Shown one piece after another: positions 22,683-62,541 of a stretch of DNA of 64,000 bases. The translations under genes and the position numbers were made by a program. Positions within the stretch are counted from its first letter, which is position 1. Every line of letters starts with the position of its first letter. Location of the stretch: contig NZ_VTUX01000009.1 of the NCBI RefSeq assembly GCF_008370495.1, positions 124,376 through 188,375 of the forward strand, given 5' to 3'. The notes beneath the pieces are model-generated. The model saw only the letters and a list, made by a program, of their open reading frames with translations. It was not told the DNA's origin and did no database searches. This stretch comes from Pseudohalioglobus sediminis. Lineage in GTDB: Bacteria > Pseudomonadota > Gammaproteobacteria > Pseudomonadales > Halieaceae.

Positions 22683-22708
22683 ATTACACCTCGAATTTAC
22701 GCACACCA

Positions 22709-22743
22709 AGCGTACGCAAACGCGATGCGGGAGCGAACATCAA
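22709..22743 (-). promoter_or_regulatory. Shared upstream element of the DUF1640 family (copy 3)
   Basis: Minus-strand TTGATGTTCG (22743-22734) and TACGCT (22714-22709), at the same offset, although the rest of this leader differs from the other copies. Confidence 0.55.
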
Positions 22744-24138: not shown

Positions 24139-24588
24139 CTAAGCCACCCAAACCAGCACAGCCTGCAAAACCGGCACCGCCAGCGCTGCCAGAATCACGG
24201 CCAGCATTACATTCACTTTGGCAAAGCGGGTTTCCATCTCGGCGAAGCCAAGCTGCATACGCGACTCGAGTTCATTGAAGCGCAACTCGAACCGGGCGTC
24301 CTGCGCAGCGAAGCGGTGGTCAACCTCTGCAAAGCGCGCATCAAACCTGGCCTCAATGTCAGCAAAGCGAGCGTCAACCTGGGCGAAACGATGATCCAAC
24401 TCCCGCCCTATCCGCGACTCAAATTCGGCGAACCGGGTATCCAGGTAATCCTTGGTTACCAGGGCATCAAAATGTTGCACATACATGGCAGCCAATCCCT
24501 CCGCGACAACCTTCGCCTGGGCCGGGGGCATACCTGCCTCTTGCAGTTGCTCCGCGAAACCTGTCGGCGTCAACACTATCGCTGCCAT
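24139..24588 (-). CDS. DUF1640/CCDC90-like coiled-coil membrane protein, copy 4
   Basis: A 149-residue paralogue with the most diverged head (MAAIVLTPTGFAEQLQEAGMPPAQAKVVAEGLAAMYVQHFDALVTKDYLDTRF). The stalk is mostly 11-residue repeats (RFADIEARFDARFAEVDHRFAAQDARFELRFNELESRM) and the anchor is VMLAVILAALAVPVLQAVLVWV. It is convergent with fcl and has its own shared upstream element. Head divergence with a conserved neck suggests partner specificity in the head. Confidence 0.82.
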   Translation of the reverse strand: MAAIVLTPTGFAEQLQEAGMPPAQAKVVAEGLAAMYVQHFDALVTKDYLDTRFAEFESRIGRELDHRFAQVDARFADIEARFDARFAEVDHRFAAQDARFELRFNELESRMQLGFAEMETRFAKVNVMLAVILAALAVPVLQAVLVWVA

Positions 24589-26415: not shown

Positions 26416-26844
26416 TCAAGACACCCAACCAATCAGCGTCTGCAGCATGGGCACCGCCACGGCCACCAGGATAATACCTAGCGTGACGTTGATGCGCGCG
26501 AAGCGGACATCGACCTCGGCAAAGCGGACATCAAACCTGGCATCCATCTCAGCAAAGCGAGCGTCAAACCTGGCATCTATCTCAGCAAAGCGGGCGTCAA
26601 ACCGGGCTTCCATCTCAGCAAAGCGAGCGTCCACCTGGCCGAACCGCTGATCCAACTCCCGCCCAATGCGAGACTCGAACTCGTTGAAACGCGTGTCGAG
26701 ATAATCCCTGGTTACCAGGGCATCCATGTTGTGTACAAACATCTGCGTCATGACTTTGGCGTGCACCTCCGCCTGCTCTCGCGGCACCCCAGAGGATTCC
26801 AGCGCGCGTGCGTACTCCAGTGGATCAAATGCTATGGCTGCCAT
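26416..26844 (-). CDS. DUF1640/CCDC90-like coiled-coil membrane protein, copy 5 (hendecad stalk)
   Basis: A 142-residue paralogue. The head is almost identical to copies 1 and 2 (AFDPLEYARALESSGVPREQAEVHAK). The stalk consists of repeated 11-residue units (RFDARFAEIDA, RFDARFAEMDA, RFDVRFAEVDV), so it is a 33-base repeat at DNA level. The anchor is VTLGIILVAVAVPMLQTLIGWV. The same head on a differently built stalk indicates recombination or slippage within repeats after duplication. Confidence 0.85.
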   Translation of the reverse strand: MAAIAFDPLEYARALESSGVPREQAEVHAKVMTQMFVHNMDALVTRDYLDTRFNEFESRIGRELDQRFGQVDARFAEMEARFDARFAEIDARFDARFAEMDARFDVRFAEVDVRFARINVTLGIILVAVAVPMLQTLIGWVS

Positions 26845-45061: not shown

Positions 45062-47326
45062 TTACGAGGGTTCTTCGGCGGTGTAGTAGTGGCTGTATTG
45101 GTAATGGGCCTTGCCGACTGCCTTGATGTCGAACTGGTTCAGCACCACGCCGGCCAGGGGTTCGTTGTTGGCGAGGATGGCGTCTATGCCTTTTTGCACC
45201 TGGGTGGCGGGGGTGGCGTCGGCTTTCACCACGTAGATCACAATGTCTGAAAGCGCCGCCAGCACCAGGGCGTCGCTCACCGGCTGCATGGGGGCGGAGT
45301 CGATCACGATGCGGTCGTAGCGCTGGCGCAGTTCTTCCAGGGCGTAGGCGAATTTGCGTGAGCTCAGCATTTCCAGCGGGTTGGGCGGAATCAGGCCGGA
45401 GGTCATCACGTCCACGCCCATGTCTTCCATGTGCACGATGCACTCTTCCAGGCTGGCGGTCTCGGAAACAAAGTGGCTGAGGCCGGGGCGCTTCGGGTCC
45501 AGGCCGCACTTGGAAGCCAGGCCGGGCTGGCGCAGGTCACCGCCCACCACCAGCACCTGCTCCATCTGCCCCAGGGCCACGCCGAGGTTCAGCGCCAGGG
45601 TGGATTTGCCCTCCCCCGGCACGGTGGAGGTCACCACGATCACCCGCGCCGGGTTATCCAGCTGGTTCAGCAGCAGGCTGGTGCGGATGCTGCGGATGGA
45701 TTCGGCAAACACGCCGCGCGGTTTCTCCCAGATGTGCTGGATGTAGCCGTGGGCAGCGGGCTTCTCCCGCGGGATCGCCCCCAGCAGCGGCGCGTGCAGT
45801 TTCTCGCCCACGTCTTCCGGCTTCTTGATGGTGTTGTCCAGCATGTCCAGCAGGATGGCCACGCCGCAGCCGAGCATGGTGCCCAGCACAAAGGCCAGCA
45901 CCAGGCTCATTTTCATATTGGGCTTGTAGGGGCGCTCGGGCGGCAGGGCCCGGTCTACCAGGCGCGCGTGCGGGCTTTCGAAACCGCCGGTCTCGGTGAG
46001 CGCGCGGATGCGCGAGAAGAAGGCGTCGTAGAGTTCGCGGTTGGTGTTCACCTCGCGCTGCAGTTCGCGCAGCTGGAACTCCACGCGGTTGAAGTTCTGC
46101 ATTTCGCTTTTGCGCGCTTCCCAGTTTTCCTGCAGCTGCTGTTCGTTGCGCAGGGCCACCTCGTACTCGCGGCTGATGCCGGAAACCACCTTGCGCACTT
46201 CCCGCTCCAGGGAATCGTTGGCGGCGGCGAGGTCGGATTGCGCGGCAATCATTTTCGGGTGTTTGGGGCCGTAGCGCTTGCCGAGTTCGGCCACGGTGCG
46301 CTCGGCGGAGGCCTGCTCGCGCTTGATGTCGCGGATCACGTCGTGCTGCAGCACCGCGGGAATGGTCATCAGCTCGTCCACGCTGGCGCCGCGCATGTTC
46401 TGCACATTCTCCATGATGGTTTGCGCCTCGATGCGGGCGCGGCGCGCCTCGTCCAGGCGCTGGGAGAGCACGTAAAGCTCACTGCCGCCGAGGCTGGTCT
46501 CGCCGTCCACGTCTACCAGGCCTTCCTGCTCGCGGAAGTCCTGCAGCGCCTGCTCGCTCTCGCGCAGGTCGCTTGTCAGCTCTTGCAGGCGGGTGGTCAT
46601 CCAGTCGGTGGCCTGGATGGAGCCGGAGGTGCGGGTTTCCAGGTCCTGGGCGATAAACTCTTCCGCCAGGGTGTTGACGATGGTGGCGGCGAGCCTGGCG
46701 TCGGTGGAATCAAAGCTCAGGTAGGCCACGTGGCTGTATTCCACCGGCTGCACGCTGAGGCCGCCGGTGATGTAAGCGGCGGCGGCCTGTATCTCCAGCT
46801 CTTCCTTTTGCTCCGGGGTCAGCTGCACCGGGGGTTCCTGCTCCCGCGCCGGCAGCAGGCTCTTCAGGCTGAAGCTGAAGCCGGGCTCATCGCCCTCGCC
46901 GTCTTTGGGCTGGAAGATGGCGTGCTTGTGCAGCTGCAGTTTGCGCGCCACCCGCTCCGCCAGGCTGCGGCTCTTGAGGATTTCAAACTGGGTCTGGAAG
47001 TAGTCGTACTCGCGGTAGGTGCTGTAGGCGTACTGCTGGTCCTGCGGCACCAGCGGGTTGCCCTGCTTGGCCTCGATCACCACCGAGGCGGAGGCGCGGT
47101 AAGTGGGCTCCTGGGTGTTCACCCACAGGCCGGTGATCAGGGTGATGGCAAAGGCCAGGGCGAGGATCGCCCACTTGTGCTGCAGCACCGCGTTGATCAG
47201 GCGGCTGAGGTCGATGAAGTCGTCGTCCTGCGGGTGCTGCGGGCCCGCGCCTGGCTGCGGCATCGCCGCGGCGTGCCTGGGCAGGTTGGAAGCGGGCGTG
47301 GCGGGCATGTCGGGTGGCTGGTTCAT
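45062..47326 (-). CDS. Wzc-like polysaccharide co-polymerase / BY-kinase, second copy
   Basis: A 754-residue protein with a Wzz domain (first membrane helix HKWAILALAFAITLITGLWV, second near residue 475, LVLAFVLGTMLGCGVAILL), long coiled coils, and an ATPase with Walker A TSTVPGEGKSTLALNLG (about 562-570) and Walker B IVIDSAP. The Walker A' reads VVGGDLRQP: the first Asp of the usual DxD is Gly, so kinase activity may be weak. The C-terminal Tyr cluster is short (YQYSHYYTAEEPS). It is VpsO-like by neighbourhood. Its start overlaps the Wza-like stop by one base. Confidence 0.9.
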   Translation of the reverse strand: MNQPPDMPATPASNLPRHAAAMPQPGAGPQHPQDDDFIDLSRLINAVLQHKWAILALAFAITLITGLWVNTQEPTYRASASVVIEAKQGNPLVPQDQQYAYSTYREYDYFQTQFEILKSRSLAERVARKLQLHKHAIFQPKDGEGDEPGFSFSLKSLLPAREQEPPVQLTPEQKEELEIQAAAAYITGGLSVQPVEYSHVAYLSFDSTDARLAATIVNTLAEEFIAQDLETRTSGSIQATDWMTTRLQELTSDLRESEQALQDFREQEGLVDVDGETSLGGSELYVLSQRLDEARRARIEAQTIMENVQNMRGASVDELMTIPAVLQHDVIRDIKREQASAERTVAELGKRYGPKHPKMIAAQSDLAAANDSLEREVRKVVSGISREYEVALRNEQQLQENWEARKSEMQNFNRVEFQLRELQREVNTNRELYDAFFSRIRALTETGGFESPHARLVDRALPPERPYKPNMKMSLVLAFVLGTMLGCGVAILLDMLDNTIKKPEDVGEKLHAPLLGAIPREKPAAHGYIQHIWEKPRGVFAESIRSIRTSLLLNQLDNPARVIVVTSTVPGEGKSTLALNLGVALGQMEQVLVVGGDLRQPGLASKCGLDPKRPGLSHFVSETASLEECIVHMEDMGVDVMTSGLIPPNPLEMLSSRKFAYALEELRQRYDRIVIDSAPMQPVSDALVLAALSDIVIYVVKADATPATQVQKGIDAILANNEPLAGVVLNQFDIKAVGKAHYQYSHYYTAEEPS

Positions 47327-47865
47327 CAGAAGAAGGTGTCCTGCACGGTGAAGATGTCGCCCGGTTGTACCTGGTATTCCAGGCCCACTTTCTTTTCCCT
47401 GCGCTCGGGGTCGCTGTCGGCGATAACGAGTATCTCCTTGCGGTTGGCGCGCTCGGTAAAGCCGCCGGCCAGGGCCACGGCCTTGCGCAGGGTGAGCCCG
47501 GGCTGGAAGTCTACCCCGCCGGGACTCTTGACCTCGCCGTTCACGAAGAAGGGCCGGTATTTGACGATGCTCACGGAGATGCGCGGGTCTACCAGGTAAT
47601 CGGGCTTGAGGCCGTTGGTGATCTGGTCCTGCACCTCGGAGGCGGTTTTGCCGGAGACCTTCAGTTCACCGAGAAAGGGGTAGGAGATGCGCCCGTTCTG
47701 GCCAATCAGCAGGGACTGGAAGGTGAGGTCCGGCTCGCCGTACACGTAGATGCGGATGGTGTCGCCGGCATTCAGGGTGTAGTTGGATTCCTGGGCGTGG
47801 CTGAGGGTGGCGGCCAGCAGCAGGGTGAGAATGGCAAAAAGGCGATGGGTGGCGGTGGTTGGCAT
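47326..47865 (-). CDS. Wza-like polysaccharide export protein, short form
   Basis: A 179-residue precursor with a cleavable signal peptide (FAILTLLLAATLSHAQ), no lipobox Cys. It has Poly_export (YTLNAGDTIRIYVYGEPDLTFQSLLIGQNGRISYPFLGELKVSGKT) and one SLBB-like domain (FFVNGEVKSPGGVDFQPGLTLRKAVALAGGFTERA). It is VpsN-like: much shorter than E. coli Wza and without its C-terminal barrel-forming helix, so it needs a separate outer-membrane partner. The OM-barrel gene two genes upstream (48495) is the natural candidate. Confidence 0.87.
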   Translation of the reverse strand: MPTTATHRLFAILTLLLAATLSHAQESNYTLNAGDTIRIYVYGEPDLTFQSLLIGQNGRISYPFLGELKVSGKTASEVQDQITNGLKPDYLVDPRISVSIVKYRPFFVNGEVKSPGGVDFQPGLTLRKAVALAGGFTERANRKEILVIADSDPERREKKVGLEYQVQPGDIFTVQDTFF

Positions 47866-48494: not shown

Positions 48495-49688
48495 TTACAG
48501 GCTCAGCTCGGCCTCGATGAAGTACACGTTGCGGGAGTAGTCGAAGCTTGGCCGGTCGGAATCCCTGTCTTCGTAGCGGTAGCCGCCGCCGATGTCGAAC
48601 CAGCGGTCCACGTTGTAGAGGTACTTCGCTTCCAGCTGCCAGCGTTCGTCTTCGCGGGTGTAGCCGGTGTAGTCGTCGTCACCCCACAGGCTGCGGACCT
48701 CGGTGCGCGAGCGGCCACTCCAGTCGTGGTCCCAGCGGATCTGGTACTCCTCCACGTCGATGGCGTCGCCGAGGCCGTTGGTCTCCTCGCTGAAACGGCG
48801 GGTGCCAAAGTTGAAGTTGGAGTAGCTGCGCGGCTTGTAGTCCACGTCCACTTCCCAGGAGAAGCCGTCGTCATCCGAGCGCCGGCGCGAGTCGTAGCTG
48901 CGGTCGTACCAACCCAGGCGCACGCTGCCGGAGGTCTTGGCGGTGGCCTGCCATTCCACACCCGCGAAGTAATTCCACTCCTCGCTGTCGTAGGAGCCGC
49001 CGGGGTCAGCCGGGTTGATTCTGTCGTATTCGTTGTCGATGTAGCGCACTTCCACCAGCGCGTCGGTGCGCGGCGCCACTTTCCAGAAGAAGGTGCCCTT
49101 GAGGGTGTCCTGCTCGCGGTCGCGGTACCGGGTGACGTCGCGGAAGTTCTGGTAGTCCAGGTCGAGGTAGTCGTAGGCCACGGTCAGGCGGCCGTCGGCA
49201 CTACGGCTGCCGTAGGTGTAATCGCCGCCCCAGCGCCATTGCTCGTATTCCACCGGTTTGTCGATGAGCTGCGCAAGGCCGCCCTCGGCCAGGCCGGTAC
49301 CGCGCTCTTCGTGGGCGTCAAAATATTCGGCGTAGGCGTTCAGGGTGTTGCGGGCGTTGAACTCGTGGTGGATGTCCAGGTTGACGCGGTGGTCGGTGTA
49401 GTCGTCGTCGTGGCTGGAGAAGTAGCGGTAGTCGGCCAGCTCATAGGCCAGGGAATAGGTGTTGTTGCCGTTTTTCAGCCAGGCCTGCACGCGGGGGCGT
49501 ACGTCGGAAACCCAGGAGCTTTTTTCATCGCGGGCGCTGCGGAAGATGTTGTCCACGTAGCGCGCTTCGGCTTTCACGGTGGGCACGATGTAGACCGGGC
49601 CCGCCTTGATCGGCGCCGGTTCCACCGCCAGTGCGCCCTGGGCACACAGGTTCCCTACGGTGACCACTGCTAAAGTATAACGTTTCAC
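48495..49688 (-). CDS. Outer-membrane beta-barrel polysaccharide export protein (VpsM-like)
   Basis: A 397-residue precursor. The GTG at 49688 gives a signal peptide (VKRYTLAVVTVGNLCAQGALA) and is favoured because the promoter's predicted start lies only a few bases before the alternative ATG at 49727. The mature protein begins with VYIVPTVKAEARYVDNIFRSARDEKSSWVSDVRPRVQAWLKNG and continues as alternating amphipathic strands ending VYFIEAELSL, a terminal barrel strand. The composition (many Asp, Tyr, Arg) and the position next to Wza-like, Wzc-like and VpsP-like genes mark it as the outer-membrane pore of a Vps-type exporter. Confidence 0.75.
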   Translation of the reverse strand: MKRYTLAVVTVGNLCAQGALAVEPAPIKAGPVYIVPTVKAEARYVDNIFRSARDEKSSWVSDVRPRVQAWLKNGNNTYSLAYELADYRYFSSHDDDYTDHRVNLDIHHEFNARNTLNAYAEYFDAHEERGTGLAEGGLAQLIDKPVEYEQWRWGGDYTYGSRSADGRLTVAYDYLDLDYQNFRDVTRYRDREQDTLKGTFFWKVAPRTDALVEVRYIDNEYDRINPADPGGSYDSEEWNYFAGVEWQATAKTSGSVRLGWYDRSYDSRRRSDDDGFSWEVDVDYKPRSYSNFNFGTRRFSEETNGLGDAIDVEEYQIRWDHDWSGRSRTEVRSLWGDDDYTGYTREDERWQLEAKYLYNVDRWFDIGGGYRYEDRDSDRPSFDYSRNVYFIEAELSL

Positions 49689-49736
49689 GTCCTGGTCCCA
49701 GTGGGGGCCGCCACGTGCCCCTCTCATGTTTTGTCA

Positions 49737-49798: not shown

Positions 49799-51241
49799 CT
49801 ATAAAGCCTTGTTTCGCGGCAAGTTTCCGGAAATATACGCTAGCGCGAGCAAACTTACGAAGGTGAGCGCGTTGGCGGGGATCTGCAGGTTGAAATCCAC
49901 CGTGGAGTGAATCGCGGCCCAGATCACCGCCATGGTCACCGCAAAACCGGCCCCGCGGTACAGCGGGTGGTGCCGTTTGCGCTGCACCTGCACCGCCTGC
50001 CACAGGCACAGCGCCACAAAGGCCACCAGCGCCAGCGCCGCCGGCAGGCCCAGCTCCGCGCTGAACTCCAGGTAGTCGTTGTGGCTGTGCAGGTAGAAGC
50101 CGCGCAGCTGCTCGCCCTGGAAGTTGGGGAAAATACCGTAAAAGGAGCCGCCCCCGGAGCCGGTGAAAGGAAACGCGCGGATGTAATCCAGGGTGTAGAA
50201 GTCCATCCAGTAGCGGGAGAACTCCTCCGCGGCCTTGCCTTCCAGGCCTTCCAGCCGCTCTACCAGTTTATCCAGCCCGAACCAGCGCCCGAGGATGATC
50301 ATGTCCACCACGAACAGGCTGGCGAGAAAGCCCACCATGCGCCAGGAGAAGCGGCGCCCGCTGTACAGGGCCACGCAGCCGGCCAGGGCCAGGGCGCTGA
50401 AAAAGGCCACGTTGCCCATGCGCGAGCGCGTCAGCACCAGCGCCACCACCATCACCGCCAGGTAGAGGCGCAGGCGGAACTTGGGGCTGAGCAGCAGCCG
50501 CAGCCAGCTGCGCAGGCGCTCTTTCCAGCCGTGAATACGCTGGCGCGACAGCTGCGACAGCAGCAGCCCGGTGCCCGCCGCCAGGCACATCACCAGGTAG
50601 CCGGCGAGGTGGTTGCGGTTGACGAAGGTGCCGGTGGCCACGCCGCGGCCGGCGTACTTCTCCACGAAGAAGCCCAGTTCCAGGCCGCTGAGCACCATGA
50701 AGGCGCCATAGGCCGCCTGCGCGGTGCCGCTGAACACCAGCACCTGCAGGAACAGCCGCACCCGGCGCTCGCTGTTGACCAGGGCCAGCATCAGGAAAAA
50801 CCCGAGGGTGATGCCGCAGCCGCGCAGCAGGTAGTAGTGGGTGGCGGCCCAGTCCAGTGACAGCGTGAGCCAGCCCTCGCGCACATGCCAGGCCGCCGCC
50901 CGGGGCGAGAGCGCCTCGATGACCGCCGGGGGCAAGGGGGTAATCTGCAGCAGCACCCAGGCCTGCACTGCCAGCAGGATGTACAGCGGCACTTTGGCGC
51001 GGCGCCAGATGCGCGGGTGGACCTGCGCCCTGCCGGCCAGCCACAGGGCCACCCAGGCGGCGGCCACGGCGGCCAGCAGCAGGGTGAGCAGGGAGCCGGC
51101 CCATTCACGGTTGGAGGCAAAGGGCAGCGGCGCCCACACCAGGATCGCCATGAAGGCGGCGAACAGTGCGCCCTCTAAAGCGCTGTGCTTCGTAGGAGCG
51201 GCTACAGCCGCGATATTTTTAGTGCCCTGGCCCGAAATCAT
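49799..51241 (-). CDS. O-antigen ligase/polymerase-like membrane protein with REP-coded N-terminus
   Basis: A 480-residue protein with about eleven membrane helices and the Wzy_C region DYIRAFPFTGSGGGSFYGIFPNFQGEQLRGFYLHSHNDYLEFSAELGLP. It is the expected polymerase or ligase of the second locus. The start is uncertain: from ATG 51241 the first 17 residues include IAAVAAPT, which is a translated REP palindrome (51192-51214), whereas the next Met (51151) falls inside the first membrane helix. No good ribosome site is visible for either. It ends 72 bases before the upstream edge of the OM-barrel gene. Confidence 0.75.
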   Translation of the reverse strand: MISGQGTKNIAAVAAPTKHSALEGALFAAFMAILVWAPLPFASNREWAGSLLTLLLAAVAAAWVALWLAGRAQVHPRIWRRAKVPLYILLAVQAWVLLQITPLPPAVIEALSPRAAAWHVREGWLTLSLDWAATHYYLLRGCGITLGFFLMLALVNSERRVRLFLQVLVFSGTAQAAYGAFMVLSGLELGFFVEKYAGRGVATGTFVNRNHLAGYLVMCLAAGTGLLLSQLSRQRIHGWKERLRSWLRLLLSPKFRLRLYLAVMVVALVLTRSRMGNVAFFSALALAGCVALYSGRRFSWRMVGFLASLFVVDMIILGRWFGLDKLVERLEGLEGKAAEEFSRYWMDFYTLDYIRAFPFTGSGGGSFYGIFPNFQGEQLRGFYLHSHNDYLEFSAELGLPAALALVAFVALCLWQAVQVQRKRHHPLYRGAGFAVTMAVIWAAIHSTVDFNLQIPANALTFVSLLALAYISGNLPRNKAL

Positions 51242-51986: not shown

Positions 51987-52310
51987 ATGGCCGCAATCGC
52001 GTTTGATACACTGAAGTTCGTCCGCCGGCTGAAAGAGGCGGGCGTACCCGAGACACAGGCGGAAGCGCAGGCGGAACTGATGGCGGAAGCGTTCGTATAC
52101 AACATGGATTCGCTGGTAACAAAGGATCACCTCGAAGGGGCCCTGGATGCCCGATTTGCAGCGCAGGATCTCAGGTTCGAGAACCGTGTTTCCGATCTGT
52201 ACCTGCGCATGGCAGACATTCGCGGAGAACTGAAACTGCAGCGCTGGATTCTTGCCGCCATCGCCGCCAGTACCGTCATTCCGGCCCTGATGACCCTGTT
52301 TGCCCCCTGA
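51987..52310 (+). CDS. DUF1640/CCDC90-like coiled-coil membrane protein, copy 6
   Basis: A 107-residue member, distant from the other five in place and sequence. The head is MAAIAFDTLKFVRRLKEAGVPETQAEAQAELMAEAF, the neck NMDSLVTKDHLEGALDARF, a very short stalk, and the anchor LQRWILAAIAASTVIPALMTLF. It is on the plus strand and lacks the full shared upstream element: a TTTGATG is present at 51929-51935, but the -10-like box is not at the same offset. Its last 35 bases overlap the end of the kinase-like gene of the lasso cluster on the other strand. Confidence 0.8.
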   Translation: MAAIAFDTLKFVRRLKEAGVPETQAEAQAELMAEAFVYNMDSLVTKDHLEGALDARFAAQDLRFENRVSDLYLRMADIRGELKLQRWILAAIAASTVIPALMTLFAP

Positions 52311-53229
52311 GCGGGCCACTGGCGCAGCCCTCTCCCACCCCGGCGGCGTGATCGCGCAGGGCCCGGTATACGGCGTCCATGCGCTCCAGGTTCCAGGGGC
52401 GGTGCACGCGGTACACGGGAATGCTGTCGGCCAGTTGCGCCAGCCAGCGCATGCGCTGCTCCTGCAGGAAGCGGAAGCTGTACAGGTAGTTGGGGATCAG
52501 TTCCTCGAACTTGCGAAAGCCGGTGACCTCGGTGATGGCTATCTCCGCGTCCGGCTCGCCCTGCTCAAGCAGGTAAACCGCGTGAATCGGCCTGGCGCGG
52601 GTGGCGAAGTTCTGCACCCGGTCGCCCAACACCTCGTATTCCCGCCAGGGGCGATGGTGCGGGTGCGAGGGCACCGCGTAGTACTGCCCCCCGTGCATCA
52701 CGGTGGCGACCTTGTCATCGGAGAGCAGCGGGTGGCCCTGTTGCAGGAAATAATCCGCCAGTGTCGATTTGCCGCCGGTAGAGGGGGCCACAAACAGCAC
52801 AGGCCGCGACGCCACTTCCACCGCCGCCGCATGCAGGAAATCGTGCCCCCGCTCCAGGGTGAGATACAGCGGCAGGAAGATGTGCACAAACCAGAACACC
52901 AGCCGCTCCTGCGTGCCCAGTGCATGGCACTGGTAATGGACCAGGTTGTCGCCACCACGCCAGTGAAAACTCACCACGTCGTTGACATCCATGCGCCATG
53001 ACTGGCCCGCCACACTGTGCGCCAGCGCACGATCGCTTTGCAGGGACAGGTCGCGATTGTGGGCGTGGTAAAGCGAGAAGGTTTCCGGCAGTGTCGGCAG
53101 GGGCTGTTGCGCAGGCAACTCGCGCAGTTGCAGCGGCGCCTGCTCGGTAAAACCGGCCATCGCAGATGCTGCCGCGAACAACTCGAAGCCCGTGCGCACC
53201 GGCACGCCGTACAGCACCTGCTCAGCCAT
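52276..53229 (-). CDS. HPr-kinase-like protein of the lasso cluster
   Basis: A 317-residue protein with an HprK-type C-terminal kinase fold: HDFLHAAAVEV before the P-loop APSTGGKST (148-156), then ADYFLQQGHPLLSDDKVATV. In some Bacillales lasso clusters homologues phosphorylate the C-terminal Ser of the precursor; that is family knowledge. Here the precursor ends in Met, so the target would have to be different. It overlaps the B2 gene by 8 bases and is the last gene of the operon. Confidence 0.8.
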   Translation of the reverse strand: MAEQVLYGVPVRTGFELFAAASAMAGFTEQAPLQLRELPAQQPLPTLPETFSLYHAHNRDLSLQSDRALAHSVAGQSWRMDVNDVVSFHWRGGDNLVHYQCHALGTQERLVFWFVHIFLPLYLTLERGHDFLHAAAVEVASRPVLFVAPSTGGKSTLADYFLQQGHPLLSDDKVATVMHGGQYYAVPSHPHHRPWREYEVLGDRVQNFATRARPIHAVYLLEQGEPDAEIAITEVTGFRKFEELIPNYLYSFRFLQEQRMRWLAQLADSIPVYRVHRPWNLERMDAVYRALRDHAAGVGEGCASGPLRGQTGSSGPE

Positions 53230-53695
53230 GTGAAGCGCCCCAGCGGAACGTGGACACCACGGTGAAAGCCTCGTGCCCTGCCCCGCCGTTCACAATCTGC
53301 GCCCCGCACTGCAGCCAGGCATGGGCCGAAAGCCCGGTGGGGTCGGCGCTGCGCTCGCAGCCGCGGCGTACGCCCAGGTAAAACTGGCCGGGTATGCCCT
53401 GCGCCGCCAGCAGCCGCTGCAGCACCAGCACCTGGGCCAGGCAGGTGCTCTGCCACGGCGTGTGGTTGGCGGCCACCGCTACCAGGTAACCCATGCGGCT
53501 GGCGGCCTGCAGTTGCTCTGCGCTGGGTTCAGCAGCAGGGACCGGCTGCGGCAGGTGTTCCAGTGAGGCCACCAGGCGCTTGAACGGGCGGGTGAGAATG
53601 GCAAGGCGGGCACAGCCGAGCAGCCACGTGGCGCGCAGCAGGAACCACTTGTCGGCAGCGTCGAGAGACTGAAACCTGCTGAGTTTACCGGGCAC
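53222..53695 (-). CDS. Lasso peptide leader protease (B2, transglutaminase-like)
   Basis: A 157-residue protein of the McjB C-terminal/B2 family. It cleaves the leader from the lasso precursor once the RRE presents it. Helical N-terminus DKWFLLRATWLLGCARLAILTRPFKRL; nucleophile Cys85 in NHTPWQSTCLAQVLVLQRLLAAQGIPGQFYLGVRRG; catalytic His125 in GLSAHAWLQCGAQIVNGGAG. The usual N-terminal RRE is absent, so leader binding must be provided in trans. It starts with GTG three bases after the methyltransferase stop. Confidence 0.88.
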   Translation of the reverse strand: MPGKLSRFQSLDAADKWFLLRATWLLGCARLAILTRPFKRLVASLEHLPQPVPAAEPSAEQLQAASRMGYLVAVAANHTPWQSTCLAQVLVLQRLLAAQGIPGQFYLGVRRGCERSADPTGLSAHAWLQCGAQIVNGGAGHEAFTVVSTFRWGASHG

Positions 53696-53698
53696 GGT

Positions 53699-54844
53699 TC
53701 AGCCAAACTGCTGCGCCAGGGCGCGCATAAACTGCAGGGCCTCGCGCTCGGTGGCGAAAGCGCCCGGGTACTGGCGGGTGATGGCCTGCGCCAGCTCGGC
53801 GCTGCTGCGGCTGCCGTCCATGTGCTGCAGGGCCCAGGCGACCGCCCTGCCCTTTTCGCCCAGCCGCGGCTGGTAGGCTTCGGCGCGCTTCATCAGGTCT
53901 GCCGGTTTCAGTGGCAGTGACAGGAAGCTGCTCTGGCGCTGGCTGCTGCCCTGGTGGCTTGTGATCCAGCTCCACTCGCCGTATTCCGGGCGGCTGAGGG
54001 TGAAATCGATGGTGTCGCCCTGTTGCAGTGACAGGGGCTCGGCCAGGGGCAGGAACACCTCGCTCCAGTGGGTGGGGCCGGCGGCGCGGCTGGTGTCGTA
54101 CCACTCGTCGAGCAGGCGCATGGCGAACCAGCCCTGCCAGCCGTGCTGGGTGCCGGACTGCCCGGCCTGCACGCTGACGCTGGCCTTGCCGCCGGCGCGG
54201 TCTGCGCGGGCGAGGTCGAGGACCATCAGTTCTGCCGCCGGCGCCAGCGGTGTGACGGGCTGCTTGTCGCCACCCACGTCATACAGCAGGGTGTTGGCGG
54301 CATAGGGGCGCGCTGCGCTGTAGTCGATTGCGGGCAACTGGTTGTCGGCGCAAAAGTCACCGTAGCGCGCCCAGGTCTCCACCTTGTCCTGGTACACCGC
54401 CGGCGCCGAGGCCGGGCGCACCAGGATGCGCGCGGTATCCGGCAGCAGGGTGCCGCCGGGCTTGAGGAAACGGTCGCGCGCGTAAAACAGGGAGGGCAGC
54501 AGGTCTTCACCGAACAGCAGGTTGCCGGTGAACACCGAGATCAGCACATCCGCCTGGATGTCCTCCTGCACCTCTTCCACGCGGGCGCGCAGGCAGGTCA
54601 CGTTATCCAGCCCGGAATCCCTGGCCGCCTGGCGCGCCACCTCGATGACCGGTTCCGGCTCCACCAGGTACACGTGCTTCGCACCCAGCCGCGCGGCAAA
54701 CAGGCCCAGCACGCCGAGGCCGGCGCCGATGTCCAGCACCACGGTATCCGGGGTGACCAGCTGTTCCAGCGCGCGCACGTAGGCGGCGTTGCGCCGGGCG
54801 TCGTAAACCATACTCTGGTGGGAGGTAACTTCTGCGTAACTCAT
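53699..54844 (-). CDS. PRMT-like methyltransferase fused to a PqqD-like RRE domain
   Basis: A 381-residue protein. Residues 1-300 follow the protein arginine methyltransferase plan: an N-terminal helix (HQSMVYDARRNAAYVRAL), SAM motif I VLDIGAGLG (36-44), the acidic strand LVEPE, the loop ISVFTGNLLFGED, LFYARDRFLKPGGTLLPD and the barrel loop GPTHWSEVFLPLAEPL (THW at 258-260). The first Glu of the PRMT double-E loop is Val104; the second (Glu113) is kept. Residues about 322-381 (GRAVAWALQHMDGSRSSAELAQAITRQYP ... LQFMRALAQQF) look like the helical half of a PqqD-type RRE. As no other RRE is encoded here, this domain probably binds the leader. Start 54844 gives the PRMT-like N-terminus; the frame extends to 54901. 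Confidence 0.75.
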   Translation of the reverse strand: MSYAEVTSHQSMVYDARRNAAYVRALEQLVTPDTVVLDIGAGLGVLGLFAARLGAKHVYLVEPEPVIEVARQAARDSGLDNVTCLRARVEEVQEDIQADVLISVFTGNLLFGEDLLPSLFYARDRFLKPGGTLLPDTARILVRPASAPAVYQDKVETWARYGDFCADNQLPAIDYSAARPYAANTLLYDVGGDKQPVTPLAPAAELMVLDLARADRAGGKASVSVQAGQSGTQHGWQGWFAMRLLDEWYDTSRAAGPTHWSEVFLPLAEPLSLQQGDTIDFTLSRPEYGEWSWITSHQGSSQRQSSFLSLPLKPADLMKRAEAYQPRLGEKGRAVAWALQHMDGSRSSAELAQAITRQYPGAFATEREALQFMRALAQQFG

Positions 54845-54990
54845 GGTCGCCCGATGCGGTTGCCAGTGGCGATTATTCGCGAGGCAAGGGGGGCAATGCA
54901 AATGCCGGGCGTGAGATCCACCACGGCGGTGCTGGCGCTGGGGCGCTGGCTTTGTGTAGGCTTGCGCTTTGCATACACCTTCGGCCCGCC

Positions 54991-56661
54991 ATGAGAGAAC
55001 TGCTGCGCCACATCACCCCGCCGCCCCGGGCGCTCGCCCTGAGCGTGCTGCTGATGCTGGCCGGCACGGTGCTGACCCTGCTGATCCCGCTGTTTGCCGG
55101 CCAGCTGACGCGCAGCATCCTCGCCGAGCCGGGGGTGGAGGTGTACCCGCTGCTGTGGATCGTGGTGGCCTGGGGCGCGGTGATGGTGTTGCGCACCGGG
55201 GTCAACCTGGCCGAAACCTACTACCTGGGCATGGTGGGGGAAAAGGTCGCCACCGGCCTGCGCGACCGGGTGTACGCGCACATGCAGGCCCTGCCCCTGC
55301 CCTGGCACCAGGCGCGCAAACGCGGCCAGGTGCTGAGCCTGCTCACCAGCGATGCCGATGAAGTCAGCGGCTTTGTCACCGGCACCCTGCTGCCGCTGTT
55401 GCCCACACTGCTCACCCTGCTCGGTGCCTTCGTGATGATGGCGCGGCTGGACACGACCCTGGCGCTGGCGGTGATCATCGGCCTGCCGGCCTACTTCCTG
55501 GCCATGAAAATCATCGGCCGCGAGATCCGCCCGCTGGCCCGCGCGTGGATGGACCAGTACAGCCAGCTGGTGGCCCGCGCGGAGGAAAACCTGGCCGTGC
55601 TGCCGGCGCTGAAGGCCTTCGGCCGCGAGCGTTTGGAGCAGCAGCATTTCCAGGGCGACAACCAGCAACTGCTGGCCATTGCCCAAAGGCAACTGCGCAG
55701 GCAGGCGCTGCTGTCGCCGGCGGTGAACCTGCTCGCAGGACTGGGGATACTGTTGCTGTTGTGGCTGGGCAGCCAGCGTATTGCCGCAGGCAGCCTGGAA
55801 CCGGCGGACCTGGTCAGCCTGCTGCTGTATGCCGGTTTGCTGATGTCGCCGCTCAGCTCCCTGGCCGGGGTGTACGGGCAGGTACAGCGCGTGCGCGGTT
55901 CGGCAGAACGGTTGATCGGCTTTTTCCGCGAGCAGGGGGAAGATCTCGATGCGGGCGAAGCCCTGGGCGAGGTGCGCGGTGAAGTGCGCTTTGACAAGGT
56001 CAGCTTCGCCTACCCGGAGCGCGAGCCGATACTGCGCGGCCTCAACCTGCATATTGCCGCCGGGGAGACAGTGGCCATTACCGGGGTCAACGGTGCCGGC
56101 AAATCCACCGCCGCCCACCTGCTGCTGCGTTTTATTGCCCCCAGCGCCGGGGCCGTGTATCTCGACGGCATCGATATCGCCGGGGCCTCCATCGCCAGCG
56201 TGCGCCAACAGGTGGGACTGGTCGCCCAGCACGTGCAATTGCTGAACGGCACGGTGATGGAGAACATCGCCTACGGCCGCCCGGAGGCCTCGGCGGAGGA
56301 CATCGAGCGCGCGGCGCGTGCCGCCCATGCCGATGAATTCATTGAGGCGTTGCCGCAGGGCTACCAGACCCTGATCGGCGACGAAGGCATCAAGTTGTCC
56401 GGCGGCCAGCGCCAGCGGCTGTCACTGGCGCGCACCCTGCTGCGCGACCCGGCGGTGCTGATTCTCGATGAGGCCACCGCCATGTTCGACCCGGCGGGGG
56501 AAGCGCGGTTTATTGAGGAGTGTCACCAGGTATTGCACAGCAAGACGGTGATTCTGATTACGCACAGACCGGCGAGCCTGGCGCTGGCGGATCGGGTGTT
56601 GGAGATGCGAGAGGGTGTGTTGGTGGAAGGTTCCGGTCAGGAAAAACCCGTTCAGGCGTGA
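54991..56661 (+). CDS. Lasso peptide ABC exporter (McjD-like)
   Basis: A 556-residue half-transporter: six membrane helices (residues about 10-290) and an NBD with Walker A GVNGAGKST (about 365-373), signature LSGGQRQRLSLAR, Walker B AVLILDEATAMFD and H-loop ILITHRPASL. It would export the mature lasso peptide and give self-immunity. Start ATG 54991; the TTG at 54952 is in frame but lacks support. It is the only cluster gene on the plus strand and converges on the precursor gene, ending 28 bases from it. Confidence 0.85.
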   Translation: MRELLRHITPPPRALALSVLLMLAGTVLTLLIPLFAGQLTRSILAEPGVEVYPLLWIVVAWGAVMVLRTGVNLAETYYLGMVGEKVATGLRDRVYAHMQALPLPWHQARKRGQVLSLLTSDADEVSGFVTGTLLPLLPTLLTLLGAFVMMARLDTTLALAVIIGLPAYFLAMKIIGREIRPLARAWMDQYSQLVARAEENLAVLPALKAFGRERLEQQHFQGDNQQLLAIAQRQLRRQALLSPAVNLLAGLGILLLLWLGSQRIAAGSLEPADLVSLLLYAGLLMSPLSSLAGVYGQVQRVRGSAERLIGFFREQGEDLDAGEALGEVRGEVRFDKVSFAYPEREPILRGLNLHIAAGETVAITGVNGAGKSTAAHLLLRFIAPSAGAVYLDGIDIAGASIASVRQQVGLVAQHVQLLNGTVMENIAYGRPEASAEDIERAARAAHADEFIEALPQGYQTLIGDEGIKLSGGQRQRLSLARTLLRDPAVLILDEATAMFDPAGEARFIEECHQVLHSKTVILITHRPASLALADRVLEMREGVLVEGSGQEKPVQA

Positions 56662-56688
56662 AGCCGGCCGGGCATCAAACCAGGGCTG

Positions 56689-56868
56689 TCACATCATCAT
56701 CTGCATGTCCGCCCGATTCATATTCACGCCGCCGTCGCCCAGGCTGCCACCCGAGCCCAGGGTCAGGCCCTGTACCGGGCCGAAGCGGGTCAAACGCGGG
56801 CTGGAATAGGTGGCCCTGGTCTTATCGACCGGCTGTCGCGGTGCCTGGCTGTCTGTTTTCTTGCTCAT
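56689..56868 (-). CDS. Lasso peptide precursor (59 residues)
   Basis: A leader with the RRE-binding pattern YSSPRL (Tyr21, Pro24, Leu26), Gly30, then LT (Leu35, Thr36), the canonical Thr at -2 of the cleavage site. The predicted core starts at Gly38 and reads GSGGSLGD..., so Gly1 can form an isopeptide with Asp8, an eight-residue ring. The loop/tail is GGVNMNR and the end is ADMQMMM, unusually Met-rich. Start ATG 56868 is preceded by a GGGG stretch. It lies directly after the cyclase gene on the same strand. It was found by reading the pattern; the ring register is an inference. Confidence 0.8.
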   Translation of the reverse strand: MSKKTDSQAPRQPVDKTRATYSSPRLTRFGPVQGLTLGSGGSLGDGGVNMNRADMQMMM

Positions 56869-56917
56869 AGTGCCCCGTGGCGTAGCGCCACCTTTTCGTC
56901 TTGTCCTGGGGCGCAAT

Positions 56918-58807
56918 CTAACGCAATACTGCTTGCTTGACAATTGGCGCAGCGGCGCGTTGCTGCGCGGCCATACAGCTGAACAGGAACCACAGGGCCC
57001 AGTCAGCTGTACCCGCCGGGCCGGCAAGGGCTGCCTGTAAACGGGCATCGAAGGCCTCTGGCTGCACCCAGCGCGCGCCGGTGGGCAAGCCTGAGGTTTT
57101 GACCAGGCCGGCCAGCTCCGCCGTCAGGCCGCGAAACGTGAAGGAGAATTCGGCCTTGTCTTCGCGCTGCAGAATCTCCGTCGGCAGCAACGTTGCCATG
57201 GCGTCGCGGTGCAGGCTGCGATTGTACCCGGGGCGATTCAGTACCCCGCGCGGCAGGCTGATCGAAAAATCGACCGCACGCCTGGACCAGTAGGGTCGGC
57301 GCATGTCGAGCCCGGACTCAGCTGCCAGCGCCTCCATGGTTTCGTGGGCCAGCAGGGCATAGGCGTTATTGGCCTGGTGCCACAGGGGGCGCTGCCAATG
57401 CACCCGCGTTGGCGCCTGGTTGAATGCGGCCCGCTGTGTTGCCTGCAGGCTGCGCAGGTGCTGAATGATCTCCGGCGCGAGGTGCTCCTCGTCCTCATCG
57501 GCGGCAGTGAGCAAATCACGCAGCGCGTGCCTGAATGCCGGGGGCAGGTTGCCACCCAGGCCGCCGCGCGCGAGGCGACTTAGCGCGTAGGGCCAGCCGT
57601 CGCGCCCCGCATGATCGCGCAACAAACGCCACAGCATCGTGACCCGCCCCCGTCCGAGCGCCTCGGCGTAGGCGGCGTCGCCGCCATCCAGCCATTCATC
57701 GCCACCGGTGCCATTCAACAGCACGCGGCTGCCATTGCGCGCGGCCTGCGCAAACAGCCCCATAGTCATCACCCCGTTGGGCGCGTTGCAGAATTCGCCC
57801 CGGGTTTTGCCACGCTGCAGGTACCAGTCCAGCGACTGGTATGTCGGCGCCACCAACTCGATGCTGCGCCCGCAGTGCCGCCCCACCGCCTGCGCATAGG
57901 CCACCTCGTCGGCATCGCCGCAGCCGCGGAAGTCCAGGGTATAGCCGGCGATATCCGGCGCCTGCAGCCGGCCGTGCCGGTGCAGGTCATCGGCCACCGC
58001 AAACAGCGCCGAGGAGTCCAAGCCGCCGCTGACTTCGAAGGCCACCGGGTAATCGCTGCGCGTTTGCCGGCGCACGATGTCGGTGATCAGCTCCAGGTAG
58101 TGTTCGCGGTAGTCGCTGTCATTGGGATAGTGCAAGGTATGCTGGAAATCCGGCTGCCAGTAGCGCTGCAGTGCAATACGGCCCTGCTCCACCAGCAGCG
58201 TGTGCGCCGGCGGCAGGCGCTTGCAGCCCTGCCAGAAGGTGTCCTCATTGCTCACCCAGCACTGGGCCAGGAACTGGGTGACCATGTCCTGGTTGGGCTG
58301 CAGCGCGCCCTCGGCCAGGTCCAGCAGTGGCGGCAGTTCGGTCGCGAAGGCGAAAAAGTGCTTGCCCAGGTGGTAGTAGAACGGCCGCGTGCCGGTGTGG
58401 TCACGTGCGCACAGCAGGCGCTCGCGTCCCGCATCCCAGATGGCAAAGGCAAAATCGCCGTCCAGTTGCGCGGCGCAGCTATCACCCCAGCGCAGGTAGG
58501 CCGCGGCCAGTAATTCGGGGTCCGGCGTGTCCGCAGCCAGGCCCAGGCTTTGTGCCAGTTCGGGGGCGTTGTCCAGGCGGCCGTCGAACACCAGGTGCAG
58601 GTTGGCGCCGGGTACGGAATACGGCAGCGGGGTGCGCGCGGCGGTGCGGGTTATATGAAAGCGGGCCTGGCCCAGTGCAACGGGGCCAATACAGGCGTGG
58701 TGCAGGCCGTCCGGCCCGCGGTAGTCCATGGCATCGAGCATGGCGCGAACCGGGGCTGGCTGCGCCGGGCGGCCATCAAGGTACAGCAGGCCACAGACCC
58801 CGCTCAC
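56918..58807 (-). CDS. Lasso cyclase (asparagine synthetase B-like)
   Basis: A 629-residue protein. The N-terminal glutaminase-like domain begins MSGVCGLLYLDG, with RGPDG and AIWDAGRERLLCARDHTGTRPFYYHLG. The C-terminal synthetase domain has the PP-loop FEVSGGLDSSALFAVAD (260-266) and NGTGGDEWLDGGDAAY. Lasso cyclases activate the side-chain carboxylate of the ring Asp with ATP for attack by the core N-terminus. It starts with GTG. The Cys is at position 5 rather than directly after the Met, so glutaminase activity is doubtful. The gene lies 15 bases after the small membrane protein gene. Confidence 0.9.
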   Translation of the reverse strand: MSGVCGLLYLDGRPAQPAPVRAMLDAMDYRGPDGLHHACIGPVALGQARFHITRTAARTPLPYSVPGANLHLVFDGRLDNAPELAQSLGLAADTPDPELLAAAYLRWGDSCAAQLDGDFAFAIWDAGRERLLCARDHTGTRPFYYHLGKHFFAFATELPPLLDLAEGALQPNQDMVTQFLAQCWVSNEDTFWQGCKRLPPAHTLLVEQGRIALQRYWQPDFQHTLHYPNDSDYREHYLELITDIVRRQTRSDYPVAFEVSGGLDSSALFAVADDLHRHGRLQAPDIAGYTLDFRGCGDADEVAYAQAVGRHCGRSIELVAPTYQSLDWYLQRGKTRGEFCNAPNGVMTMGLFAQAARNGSRVLLNGTGGDEWLDGGDAAYAEALGRGRVTMLWRLLRDHAGRDGWPYALSRLARGGLGGNLPPAFRHALRDLLTAADEDEEHLAPEIIQHLRSLQATQRAAFNQAPTRVHWQRPLWHQANNAYALLAHETMEALAAESGLDMRRPYWSRRAVDFSISLPRGVLNRPGYNRSLHRDAMATLLPTEILQREDKAEFSFTFRGLTAELAGLVKTSGLPTGARWVQPEAFDARLQAALAGPAGTADWALWFLFSCMAAQQRAAAPIVKQAVLR

Positions 58808-60774: not shown

Positions 60775-60905
60775 TTAGCTCTGTTCCATTCCGCCGGCGG
60801 CGGGCTTCTATGTTTCCGGTTCTGGCGGATAATCGTTGCCTGTGGTGGCAATGGCTATCCGGCGTGTGTTCTCTATTCCAGCCTGTTTCAGCGCAGCGAG
60901 CTGAT

Positions 60906-61384
60906 CGCGGCTGCGGCCGCTCCTACAATGACTCGCTCACGAACGGCCTTGTGGGAGCGGCTATAGCCGCGATGGCCATGCCTGTTTACCGGGCACGGCC
61001 TTGCTTACCCAACCTTTTCGCGGCTGTGGCCGCTCCTACAATGACTCGCGCACGGACGGCCTTGTGGGAGCGGCTATAGCCGCGATGGCCATGCCTGTTT
61101 ACCGGGCACGGCCCTGCTTACCCAACCCTTTCGCGGCTGTGGCCGCTCCTACAATGACTCGCGCACGAACGGCCTTGTGGGAGCGGCTATAGCCGCGATG
61201 GCCATGCCTGTTTACCGGGCATGGCCTTGCTTACCCAACCCTTTCGCGGCTGTGGCCGCTCCTACAATGACTCGCGCACGAACGGCCTTGTGGGAGCGGC
61301 TATAGCCGCGATGGCCATGCCTGTTTACCGGGCACGGCCTTGCTTACCCAACCTTTTCGCGGCTGTGGCCGCTCCTACAGGGGC
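60906..61384. repeat. Tandem array of a 113-bp REP-dimer unit (4 copies plus a terminal REP)
   Basis: Units start at 60906, 61019, 61132 and 61245, all spaced exactly 113 bases, with a last lone REP at 61358. Each unit has a reverse REP, a spacer with ACAATGACTCGCGCACG, a forward REP with a TATAGCC core, and a second spacer with CATGCCTGTTTACCGGGCA. The copies differ at only a few bases. The frames they leave open (repeated GLVGAAIAAM) are not genes. The gap between purA and hisZ (60772-61374) holds nothing else. Confidence 0.95.
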
Positions 61385-62541
61385 CGGGTTTGCCATTCAC
61401 CCTCTATTTCAACCAACTCGCGATCGCAGCGCGGGTCGCGTCCTGCGCCGAGACTGTTTATCACGATCTCGCCGCTGGCGCGCAGGGCCTCTGCCTTTGC
61501 CAGCAGCTCCAGGTCATCCGAATCGGGCATGCTGATGGCACCCTGGCCGGACGCGCTCGCCGGCAGCAGGTTCATCAACGCTTTCAGGTCGGTGGCGAAG
61601 CCGGTGGCCGGGCGGGACCGACCGTACACTTCACCCACGCCGTTGTAGCGACCGCCATTGGCCAGCGCCTGGCCGTGGCCGGGCACGTAGGCGGCGAACA
61701 CGATGCCGGTGTGATAGTGATAGCCGCGCAGTTCGGCCAGGTCAAAATAGATCGGCAGGTCGGGACGCTGGTGGCGCAGGTCGGTGGCGACGTCCTGCAG
61801 CGCATCCACGGCGGCCAGGGCCCGGGGGGCGCGGTCTGCAAACAGTTCGCGGGCGGCCAGTAGCACGTTGTCATCGCCGTGCAGGTCCACCAGCCCGATG
61901 ATCAGGGTGGCAATGTCCTCGGGCACGTCATCCAGCGCCTGCATCAGATCCGGTACGGATTTGCGCTGCAGGCAGTCGAAGATGCGCGCTTCCTGTTCGT
62001 CATCCAGTTCCGCCGCGTCCAGCACCGCCTCGTAAATGCCCACGTGACCCAGGTCCAGGGTGTACCGGGCCGGCAGTTCGGCGGCGTCGAGCGTCGCCAG
62101 CATCAGGCGAATAATTTCCACGTCGGCGGCGACACTGTCATCGCCATAGAGCTCGGCGCCCAGCTGGATGGGCGACCGCGAGGCCATCAGTGACTTGGGC
62201 CGGGTGTGCAGGGTGGAGCCGGCATAGCACAGGCGCGAGACCCCGTCCGGCGCCAGGCTGTGGGCATCGATGCGCGCCACCTGCGGGGTGATGTCGGCGC
62301 GCACGCCCATGCTGCGGCCGGAAAGCTGGTCGGTAAGCTTGAAGGTCAGCAGGTCCAGGTCCTGGCCCAGGCCGGTGAGCAGGGAGTCGGTAAATTCCAC
62401 CAGCGGCGGGATCACCAGTTCGTAGCCCCAGCTGCGGAACAGGTCCAGCAGGCGGCGGCGCAGCGCTTCCACGGTAGCGGCCTGCGCGGGAAGGACTTCC
62501 TCTATGCCGTCGGGCAGCTGCCAGCGATCAACCGATGTCAT
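61375..62541 (-). CDS. hisZ: ATP phosphoribosyltransferase regulatory subunit
   Basis: A 388-residue class II aminoacyl-tRNA-synthetase-like protein that pairs with the short HisG of histidine biosynthesis. The N-terminus DRWQLPDGIEEVLPAQAATVEALRRRLLDLFRSWGYELVIPPLVEFTDSLLTG is typical; motif regions RADITPQVARIDAHSL and LCYAGSTLHT and the C-terminal YHTGIVFAAYVPGHGQALANGGRYNGVGEVYGRSRPATGFATDL follow. The last residues (EGEWQTRPL) lead into a stop, TAG, that is part of the GTAG head of the array's last REP. It lies 9 bases after the DUF2065 gene. Confidence 0.95.
   Translation of the reverse strand: MTSVDRWQLPDGIEEVLPAQAATVEALRRRLLDLFRSWGYELVIPPLVEFTDSLLTGLGQDLDLLTFKLTDQLSGRSMGVRADITPQVARIDAHSLAPDGVSRLCYAGSTLHTRPKSLMASRSPIQLGAELYGDDSVAADVEIIRLMLATLDAAELPARYTLDLGHVGIYEAVLDAAELDDEQEARIFDCLQRKSVPDLMQALDDVPEDIATLIIGLVDLHGDDNVLLAARELFADRAPRALAAVDALQDVATDLRHQRPDLPIYFDLAELRGYHYHTGIVFAAYVPGHGQALANGGRYNGVGEVYGRSRPATGFATDLKALMNLLPASASGQGAISMPDSDDLELLAKAEALRASGEIVINSLGAGRDPRCDRELVEIEGEWQTRPL

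Follow-up and report, generated by a model that had tools for sequence, protein, structure and literature searches.

Phospho-lasso clusters, lasso clusters with two tailoring genes, and peptide clusters set in capsule loci are already known. Here we describe a six-gene lasso-peptide cluster from Pseudohalioglobus sediminis (Halieaceae, Gammaproteobacteria), in which an HprK-like kinase gene is accompanied by a gene for a methyltransferase of the protein arginine methyltransferase (PRMT) fold. The cluster lies in a 64,000-nucleotide stretch of contig NZ_VTUX01000009.1 (C23 below), hereafter the window. A close counterpart is the Bsf cluster of Bradymonas sediminis, which, in the available part of its report (PMC10368454), shares with the window an HprK-like kinase, a B1 protein and a B2 leader peptidase encoded separately, and a G1-D8 ring. 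BsfK phosphorylates the ring serine Ser3 and is speeded up by BsfB1; the Bsf kinase, like the one proposed here, targets the ring rather than the C-terminus. The Bsf cluster differs in holding B1 within the cluster and in a leader with Ile at position -2, where the window precursor has Thr. The available text names no methyltransferase gene for Bsf, whereas the window cluster has one.

The paeninodin-type/LPP clusters of Bacillota combine a recognition element for ribosomally synthesized and post-translationally modified peptides (RiPP recognition element, RRE), an HprK-like kinase and an MsbA-like transporter within capsular polysaccharide loci, according to the accessible portion of PMC13381572; the word "methyltransferase" occurs zero times in the text of that paper. 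The window differs from them in its Pseudomonadota host, in the presence of B2 and cyclase, and in the added PRMT-like enzyme. Two tailoring enzymes on one lasso peptide, which the first-pass annotation of the window had thought unusual, have precedents in the consulted parts of three sources: pseudomycoidin, with a kinase and a nucleotidyltransferase on one lasso peptide (PMC9266682, PMC8498205), and lasso examples with multiple unique post-translational modifications mentioned in a 2026 review (PMC13352647). The second enzyme of pseudomycoidin is of the nucleotidyltransferase type and is tied there to hexose addition, whereas that of the window is a methyltransferase. Methyltransferases dependent on S-adenosylmethionine (SAM) are found in lasso clusters such as those of lassomycin/StspM and lihuanodin/LihM, as here, but those seen in the partial sources belong to other families and have carboxylate targets.

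We read the locus as a phospho-lasso cluster lying against an exopolysaccharide locus, with B1 supplied in trans, a kinase acting on a ring serine and a PRMT-derived methylation of the core, and we put the probability of this reading at roughly two in three. The product would likely be a lasso peptide phosphorylated in its ring and also methylated, probably at a residue other than arginine. The sequences themselves show the gene content, the genomic B1 gene and the lost first clamp glutamate; the chemical steps would run as follows. The free-standing B1, whose gene lies 58.6 kb from that of the methyltransferase, would bind the YSSPRL leader and present the precursor, as expected of the B1 family. 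By analogy with BsfK, the HprK-like kinase may phosphorylate ring serine S2 or S5, and the PRMT-derived enzyme would methylate the core, most likely in its Met-rich tail and probably not on arginine. B2 would cut after the leader T-L, the cyclase would form the G1-D8 ring with the tail threaded through it, and export of the lasso peptide would fall to the ABC transporter.

The lasso-peptide cluster is genuine, and its gene set recurs in relatives. Its minus-strand genes are ordered cyclase, precursor, methyltransferase, B2 and kinase, and only the exporter, among the six genes, is opposed. The first-pass annotation had placed all six genes correctly and had pointed out their unusual order; its proposal that the lasso genes are joined by an HprK-like kinase and a methyltransferase as additional enzymes is supported. 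The asparagine-synthase-like cyclase C (629 aa, 56918..58807, minus strand) matches Pfam Asn_synthase (2.5e-35) and GATase_7 (4.4e-21) over the cut-offs; its match to the lasso cyclase model NF033535 (1.3e-99) is nevertheless below the curated cut-off. A cyclase homologue in Pseudohalioglobus lutimaris (L002), likewise of the Halieaceae in the Gammaproteobacteria, aligns at 9.1e-256. The exporter D is an MsbA-like ABC transporter (556 aa, 54991..56661, plus strand; ABC_membrane 2.9e-45, ABC_tran 8.7e-32). The leader peptidase B2 (157 aa, 53222..53695, minus strand; Transglut_core3 1.5e-21) passes the lasso_biosyn_B2 model NF033537 (7.7e-25, 87.8 bits, cut-off 33); besides it, nothing in the genome matches PF13471 at E up to 0.001. 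The PRMT-fold methyltransferase with an all-helical C-terminal domain (381 aa, 53699..54844, minus strand) starts at 54844 by alignment with its relatives, and the HprK-like peptide kinase K (317 aa, 52276..53229, minus strand) follows B2. Two plasmid searches returned no match, and a further one gave only four distant cyclases.

Whole or nearly whole cluster-type copies of the methyltransferase occur in 8 of 140 genomes of the host family (besides a fragment in G1109), in 5 of 110 of the family of G220, one of them with an in-frame stop, and in 4 of 199 of the family of G859, which is placed in a different class of the same phylum, Pseudomonadota, and whose gene content tentatively recalls sphingomonads. 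A class-wide search of 369 genomes showed no further cluster-type copy among its 9 matches. The kinase accompanies the methyltransferase at 16 of the 17 loci, in two classes of Pseudomonadota; the exception, L067, sits on a 6.8-kb contig. At L141 (9684-10805) a decayed methyltransferase with an in-frame TAA stands with the kinase, and B2, B1, cyclase and exporter gave no match nearby.

The precursor A (59 aa, 56689..56868, minus strand) was present as claimed, but not as the open reading frame of 119 aa from 57048 first given for it; its start is the ATG at 56868. It has a YxxPxL leader (YSSPRL), T at -2, and a predicted ring acceptor, D8, within the range of positions 7-9 expected of lasso precursors. 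The predicted core, GSGGSLGDGGVNMNRADMQMMM, is preceded by T-L and would form a G1-D8 ring; the boundary was set from T(-2) and D/E at +8, common to 12/12 precursors. The core carries Ser at 2 and 5, a single Arg (Arg15) and the C-terminal end MMM. Matches to the lasso leader models NF033521 and NF033528 (0.015 and 0.013) are below cut-off. The P. lutimaris homologue (1.5e-15) keeps the leader and has a diverged tail, the pattern expected of a genuine precursor.

Precursors were located at 12 of the 17 methyltransferase loci, with D or E at core position 8 in all 12; they were not found at L063, L065 and L140 (contig ends), at the decayed L141, or at L143, which was searched. The methyltransferase-linked cores are rich in methionine: all 12 contain Met, 11 at least two, with 50 Met among 286 residues. 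Precursors of cassettes without the methyltransferase contain Met in 0/5 cases (L120, L121, L125, L147 and the second L016 precursor), which for at least two Met gives a Fisher p of 0.001 (12 linked against 5 control precursors) that is indicative only, as the loci share ancestry. The rule was formed on nine precursors, and L134 and L142, fetched later, obey it. The L066 precursor, found by eye after the first motif missed it, has one Met only and is read with T at -3, and the L068 core was cut before its Peptidase_S74 domain for the count. Among the controls, L147 has a leader with W for Y and carries its E at 9, not 8, the L121 core was read from Ser, and the second L016 precursor shares its locus with a methyltransferase gene. 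Motif matches at L017 13306, L064 13150, L134 3630 and L140 665, together with looser YxxPxL matches, were dropped as chance.

Two of these loci have features of their own. At L068 (8928-9287) the lasso-type precursor continues from the core into a Peptidase_S74 (endosialidase chaperone) domain (E 4.3e-8). L016 (2801-15460) holds two adjoining lasso cassettes with three cyclase-like and two kinase-like genes; one of its two precursors is Met-rich, the other without Met.

Residues 2-285 of the methyltransferase align with PRMT8 (1.2e-26; about 1e-26 for PRMT chains). Foldseek places the protein beside PRMT1 (3q7e, template-modelling score TMt 0.85), with identities of 22-27% among the 50 best Foldseek matches. 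The SAM-site residues D38, G40, G42 and G44 are invariant in the 12 sequences of alignment A3; both the PRMT fold and the SAM site are present. Padloc also reports mad2 (6.2e-17) across the SAM domain. The type I PRMTs (PRMT1, PRMT8, CARM1) share the catalytic fold, including the barrel, with the window methyltransferase, which differs from them in the loss of the first clamp glutamate, in its extra C-terminal helical domain and in its location in a lasso cluster.

The arginine clamp of PRMTs consists of two Glu in the double-E loop. In the window this loop reads SVFTGNLLFGEDLL (SVFTGN...EDLL), with the first Glu replaced by Val. That Glu is absent from all 17 cluster copies (Val in 13, Asp in 4). 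It is kept in all 38 other homologues fetched (20 by pattern, 18 by alignment), which include PRMT paralogues from the host's family and whose status as non-cluster proteins was judged from wider neighbourhoods for seven (L018-L022, L071, L072) and from short flanks for the rest. The second clamp glutamate, E113, and H259-W260 are invariant in the four-sequence alignment A2, and the three A3 copies from the other class are also without the THW motif.

These data bear on what the enzyme modifies. It could be a genuine arginine N-methyltransferase with Arg15 of the core as its substrate residue: type I PRMTs are its closest solved relatives, E113 and H259-W260 are in place, and the window core offers one Arg. 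With the first clamp Glu turned into Val or Asp in every cluster copy, the THW motif missing from the other-class copies and Arg lacking in 6 of the 12 linked cores, we regard this as distinctly improbable. Core Arg as the target was rejected as a general rule on the count of cores. We judge it similarly improbable that the protein partners the kinase or the cyclase in a non-catalytic or chaperone-like capacity. The lost clamp residue and the near-constant pairing with the kinase would suit such a role, but the SAM-site residues are kept in all 12 aligned proteins.

A carboxyl O-methyltransferase, forming a methyl ester at the C-terminus or on a side chain, as in lassomycin and the aspartimide lasso peptides, is unlikely in our estimate, if rather less so. 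The lasso methyltransferases described in the accessible parts of PMC9266682 and PMC13352647 target carboxylates, and all 12 linked cores have the ring Asp/Glu. The enzymes in those partial sources nevertheless belong to other families (StspM was modelled on mitomycin O-methyltransferase, and the aspartimide enzymes are PIMT homologues), and the linked cores show no conservation of their C-terminal residues. A more specific version of the methylation that we favour, which we offer as a speculation with little chance of being right in full, is that the clamp-less PRMT would tailor Met-rich lasso tails. It might be, for instance, a peptidyl-methionine S-methyltransferase, and the lasso peptide, ring-phosphorylated and bearing a sulfonium, would then be produced within an exopolysaccharide locus. 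An apolar pocket, as a thioether requires, would arise from the Val/Phe/Thr that take the place of the PRMT Glu/Trp/Met in this loop.

A PRMT-type enzyme in a lasso or RiPP cluster, or a lost clamp together with Met-rich precursors, was not found in searches of the open-licence PubMed Central literature, a scope that leaves most subscription papers and bioRxiv preprints outside. The consulted part of one paper names an arginine methyltransferase for another antibiotic (PMC12637814) and has "lasso peptide" only in a reference. A PRMT scaffold with a rebuilt clamp, combined with a kinase and Met-rich substrates, offers a compact case for testing how a protein-modifying fold acquires a new target.

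The C-terminal domain of the methyltransferase (residues 306-381; 53702..53929, minus strand) had been taken in the first-pass annotation for an RRE that fills the role of B1 throughout the pathway. An RRE of the PqqD-like kind is a three-stranded sheet followed by three helices. The AlphaFold model built on 12 relatives shows the PRMT fold (mean predicted local distance difference test score 87.9) followed by four helices and zero strands, and the model of the domain alone gave the same helices-only result. The hhalign probability against the B1 family profile is 0.9%, hmmsearch with the domain profile retrieved no RRE chain among 8 matches at E up to 5, and Foldseek with the isolated domain found nothing at E up to 0.001. 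As an RRE the domain thus fails on strands, on hhalign and on the profile search.

A few weak matches speak for that proposal. The first weak Foldseek matches are, in order, PqqD (3g2b, E 1.3), a lysine methyltransferase (8hkr, E 1.4; root-mean-square deviation 1.5 over 47 columns) and a B1-leader complex (6jx3, E 1.6). Pfam PqqD gives 14.3 bits on the domain (E 0.05, cut-off 23.4), and further weak PqqD matches to the C-terminal stretch reach 15.8 bits here and 14.0 and 16.3 bits in G1122 and G1132. Seven Halieaceae genomes including the window's show no B1 within the cluster, several of them on short contigs, and PqqD was not found in G1109, which has a truncated methyltransferase copy. Against a replacement of B1, the PqqD profile matches begin only at positions 15 to 24 and miss the sheet wholly or for the most part; the same domain is kept in relatives with a separate in-locus B1 (L017, L068-L070, L134, L140, L142, L143); and a B1 is present in the window's own genome. 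A helical core distantly like PqqD is possible, judging from the models, in which an RRE with a leader-binding sheet was not seen. We judge a fused RRE standing in for B1 highly improbable.

The B1 gene lies at C23:119154-119456, about 5 kb outside the window, which starts at C23:124376. The earlier statement that the interval 51-59 kb holds no free-standing RRE was right for the window and does not extend to the genome. A PqqD search of this genome gave one strong protein (match C23:119213-119413, 66.5 bits), whose best NCBI model is the lasso PqqD NF033536 (1.6e-16, below cut-off). A profile of ten B1-type proteins finds TbiB1 at 2.5e-24. The B1 orthologue adjoins B2 in G1145 and G1132 and is present in 11 of the 13 B2-bearing genomes of the family; the two without it are incomplete (G1124 71%, G1139 87% complete).

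Among the 17 genomes with a methyltransferase locus, 16 have a free-standing B1, and G1441 was left out of this examination. A B1-like protein lies inside the locus in nine (L016, L017, L068, L069, L070, L134, L140, L142, L143) and elsewhere in the genome in seven (G000, which is the window's genome, G1121, G1122, G1145, G1140, G1136, G1132). The in-locus B1 of L016 is divergent and stands beside a radical-SAM-like gene, and the same genome also carries the off-cluster orthologue. Pairing of the trans B1 with this cluster appears the most economical reading, short of proof. A B1 missing from a cluster may be encoded elsewhere, which calls for caution in window-based cluster annotation.

The kinase matches HprK-type models weakly (ScmC 3.8e-8, HprK_rel_A 2.6e-5, Hpr_kinase_C 9e-4). 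H133, G153-K154 and D172 are invariant in 11 aligned kinases; the motifs in the window are H133, GGKS and SDD (H...GK[ST]...D), and relatives of the other class read ED. Paeninodin-type phosphorylation calls for a C-terminal serine on the precursor, whereas the core here ends in MMM. The Bsf type has a ring Ser/Thr at position 3; the serines of the window core at 2 and 5 are in the ring, and none is at 3.

Several observations weigh against the reading of a phospho-lasso cluster with B1 in trans and core methylation. All HprK-type matches of the kinase are weak and under the curated cut-offs. The nine Val-type copies in A3 retain the second Glu as well as HW in the THW loop, which leaves some chance of arginine chemistry. 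Of the 12 linked cores, 6 hold Arg, and the methyl target in the core is putative. The apparent Met association compares 12 with 5 precursors that are not independent by descent. A truncated 18th methyltransferase copy, kept out of the count of 17, lies at a contig end in G1109; this genome is 93% complete, and searches of it for PqqD (E up to 1e-7) and for B2 (E up to 1e-5) gave no match. Finally, 11 genomes of a 100-genome set carry the trans B1 but have no detectable B2, and B1 may thus serve a different peptide system, either instead of this one or in addition to it.

The cassette is flanked by a polysaccharide locus on one side and by purA (named by eye) on the other. The polysaccharide locus includes Wzz/tyrosine kinase (45062-47326), Poly_export (47326-47865) and beta-barrel (48495-49727) genes and ends with a Wzy_C/O-antigen-ligase-like protein (49799..51241, minus strand; Pfam Wzy_C 1e-17). 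Polysaccharide markers were found near 10 of the 17 methyltransferase loci (the window and nine others) and not at L062 (the same place as L002), L063, L064, L065, L140, L141 and L143, of which L065 and L140 are shorter than 7 kb.

Among 100 family genomes of at least 85% completeness, 20/23 of those with this Wzy_C protein have the B1 orthologue, versus 2/77 of those without (p = 7e-16), orthology having been checked for the 30 best PqqD genomes, with 20 further PqqD-positive genomes outside the classification. Counting every PqqD match gives 20/23 versus 21/77 (p = 4e-7). Nine genomes have B1 and Wzy_C without B2. The Wzy_C neighbourhoods fetched from seven of these nine all contain a kinase homologue (L128, weakly at 4e-4, L144 and L146-L150), and none was found at those of the three Wzy_C genomes without B1 (L151-L153).

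Phospho-RiPPs of Bacillota are often located in capsule loci, in the available part of PMC13381572, and the co-occurrence of B1, kinase and Wzy_C observed here agrees with that partial account. The relatives with B1 and kinase and without B2 have an LPP-like gene content, as far as the same part describes it. The link between phospho-RiPPs and polysaccharide loci, known from Bacillota, is thereby extended to Pseudomonadota. At L144, L148, L149 and L150 the kinase lies directly beside Wza/Wzz-type genes, a B1-type PqqD is present and B2 was not found; these loci resemble the LPP idea in Bacillota. At the same polysaccharide-flank site in G280 (L128, 5829-12465) lies a B2-less cassette with PqqD, an ABC transporter, the weak kinase match and a protein that by eye is like a radical SAM enzyme.

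Other features of the window were noted in passing. A small gene beside the kinase (51987-52310) matches CCDC90-like at 4.2e-7, below cut-off, and similar small genes, by eye, are scattered in the polysaccharide locus (18794-19123, 22155-22709, 24139-24588, 26416-26844). At about 60800-61500, in the interval that separates the purA-like gene from the following one, peptide strings that recur by eye in the open reading frames suggest repeated DNA. In the segment 30255-40154, third-position GC falls to 0.38-0.52, where most surrounding genes have about 0.7-0.9; the segment perhaps represents acquired glycan genes.

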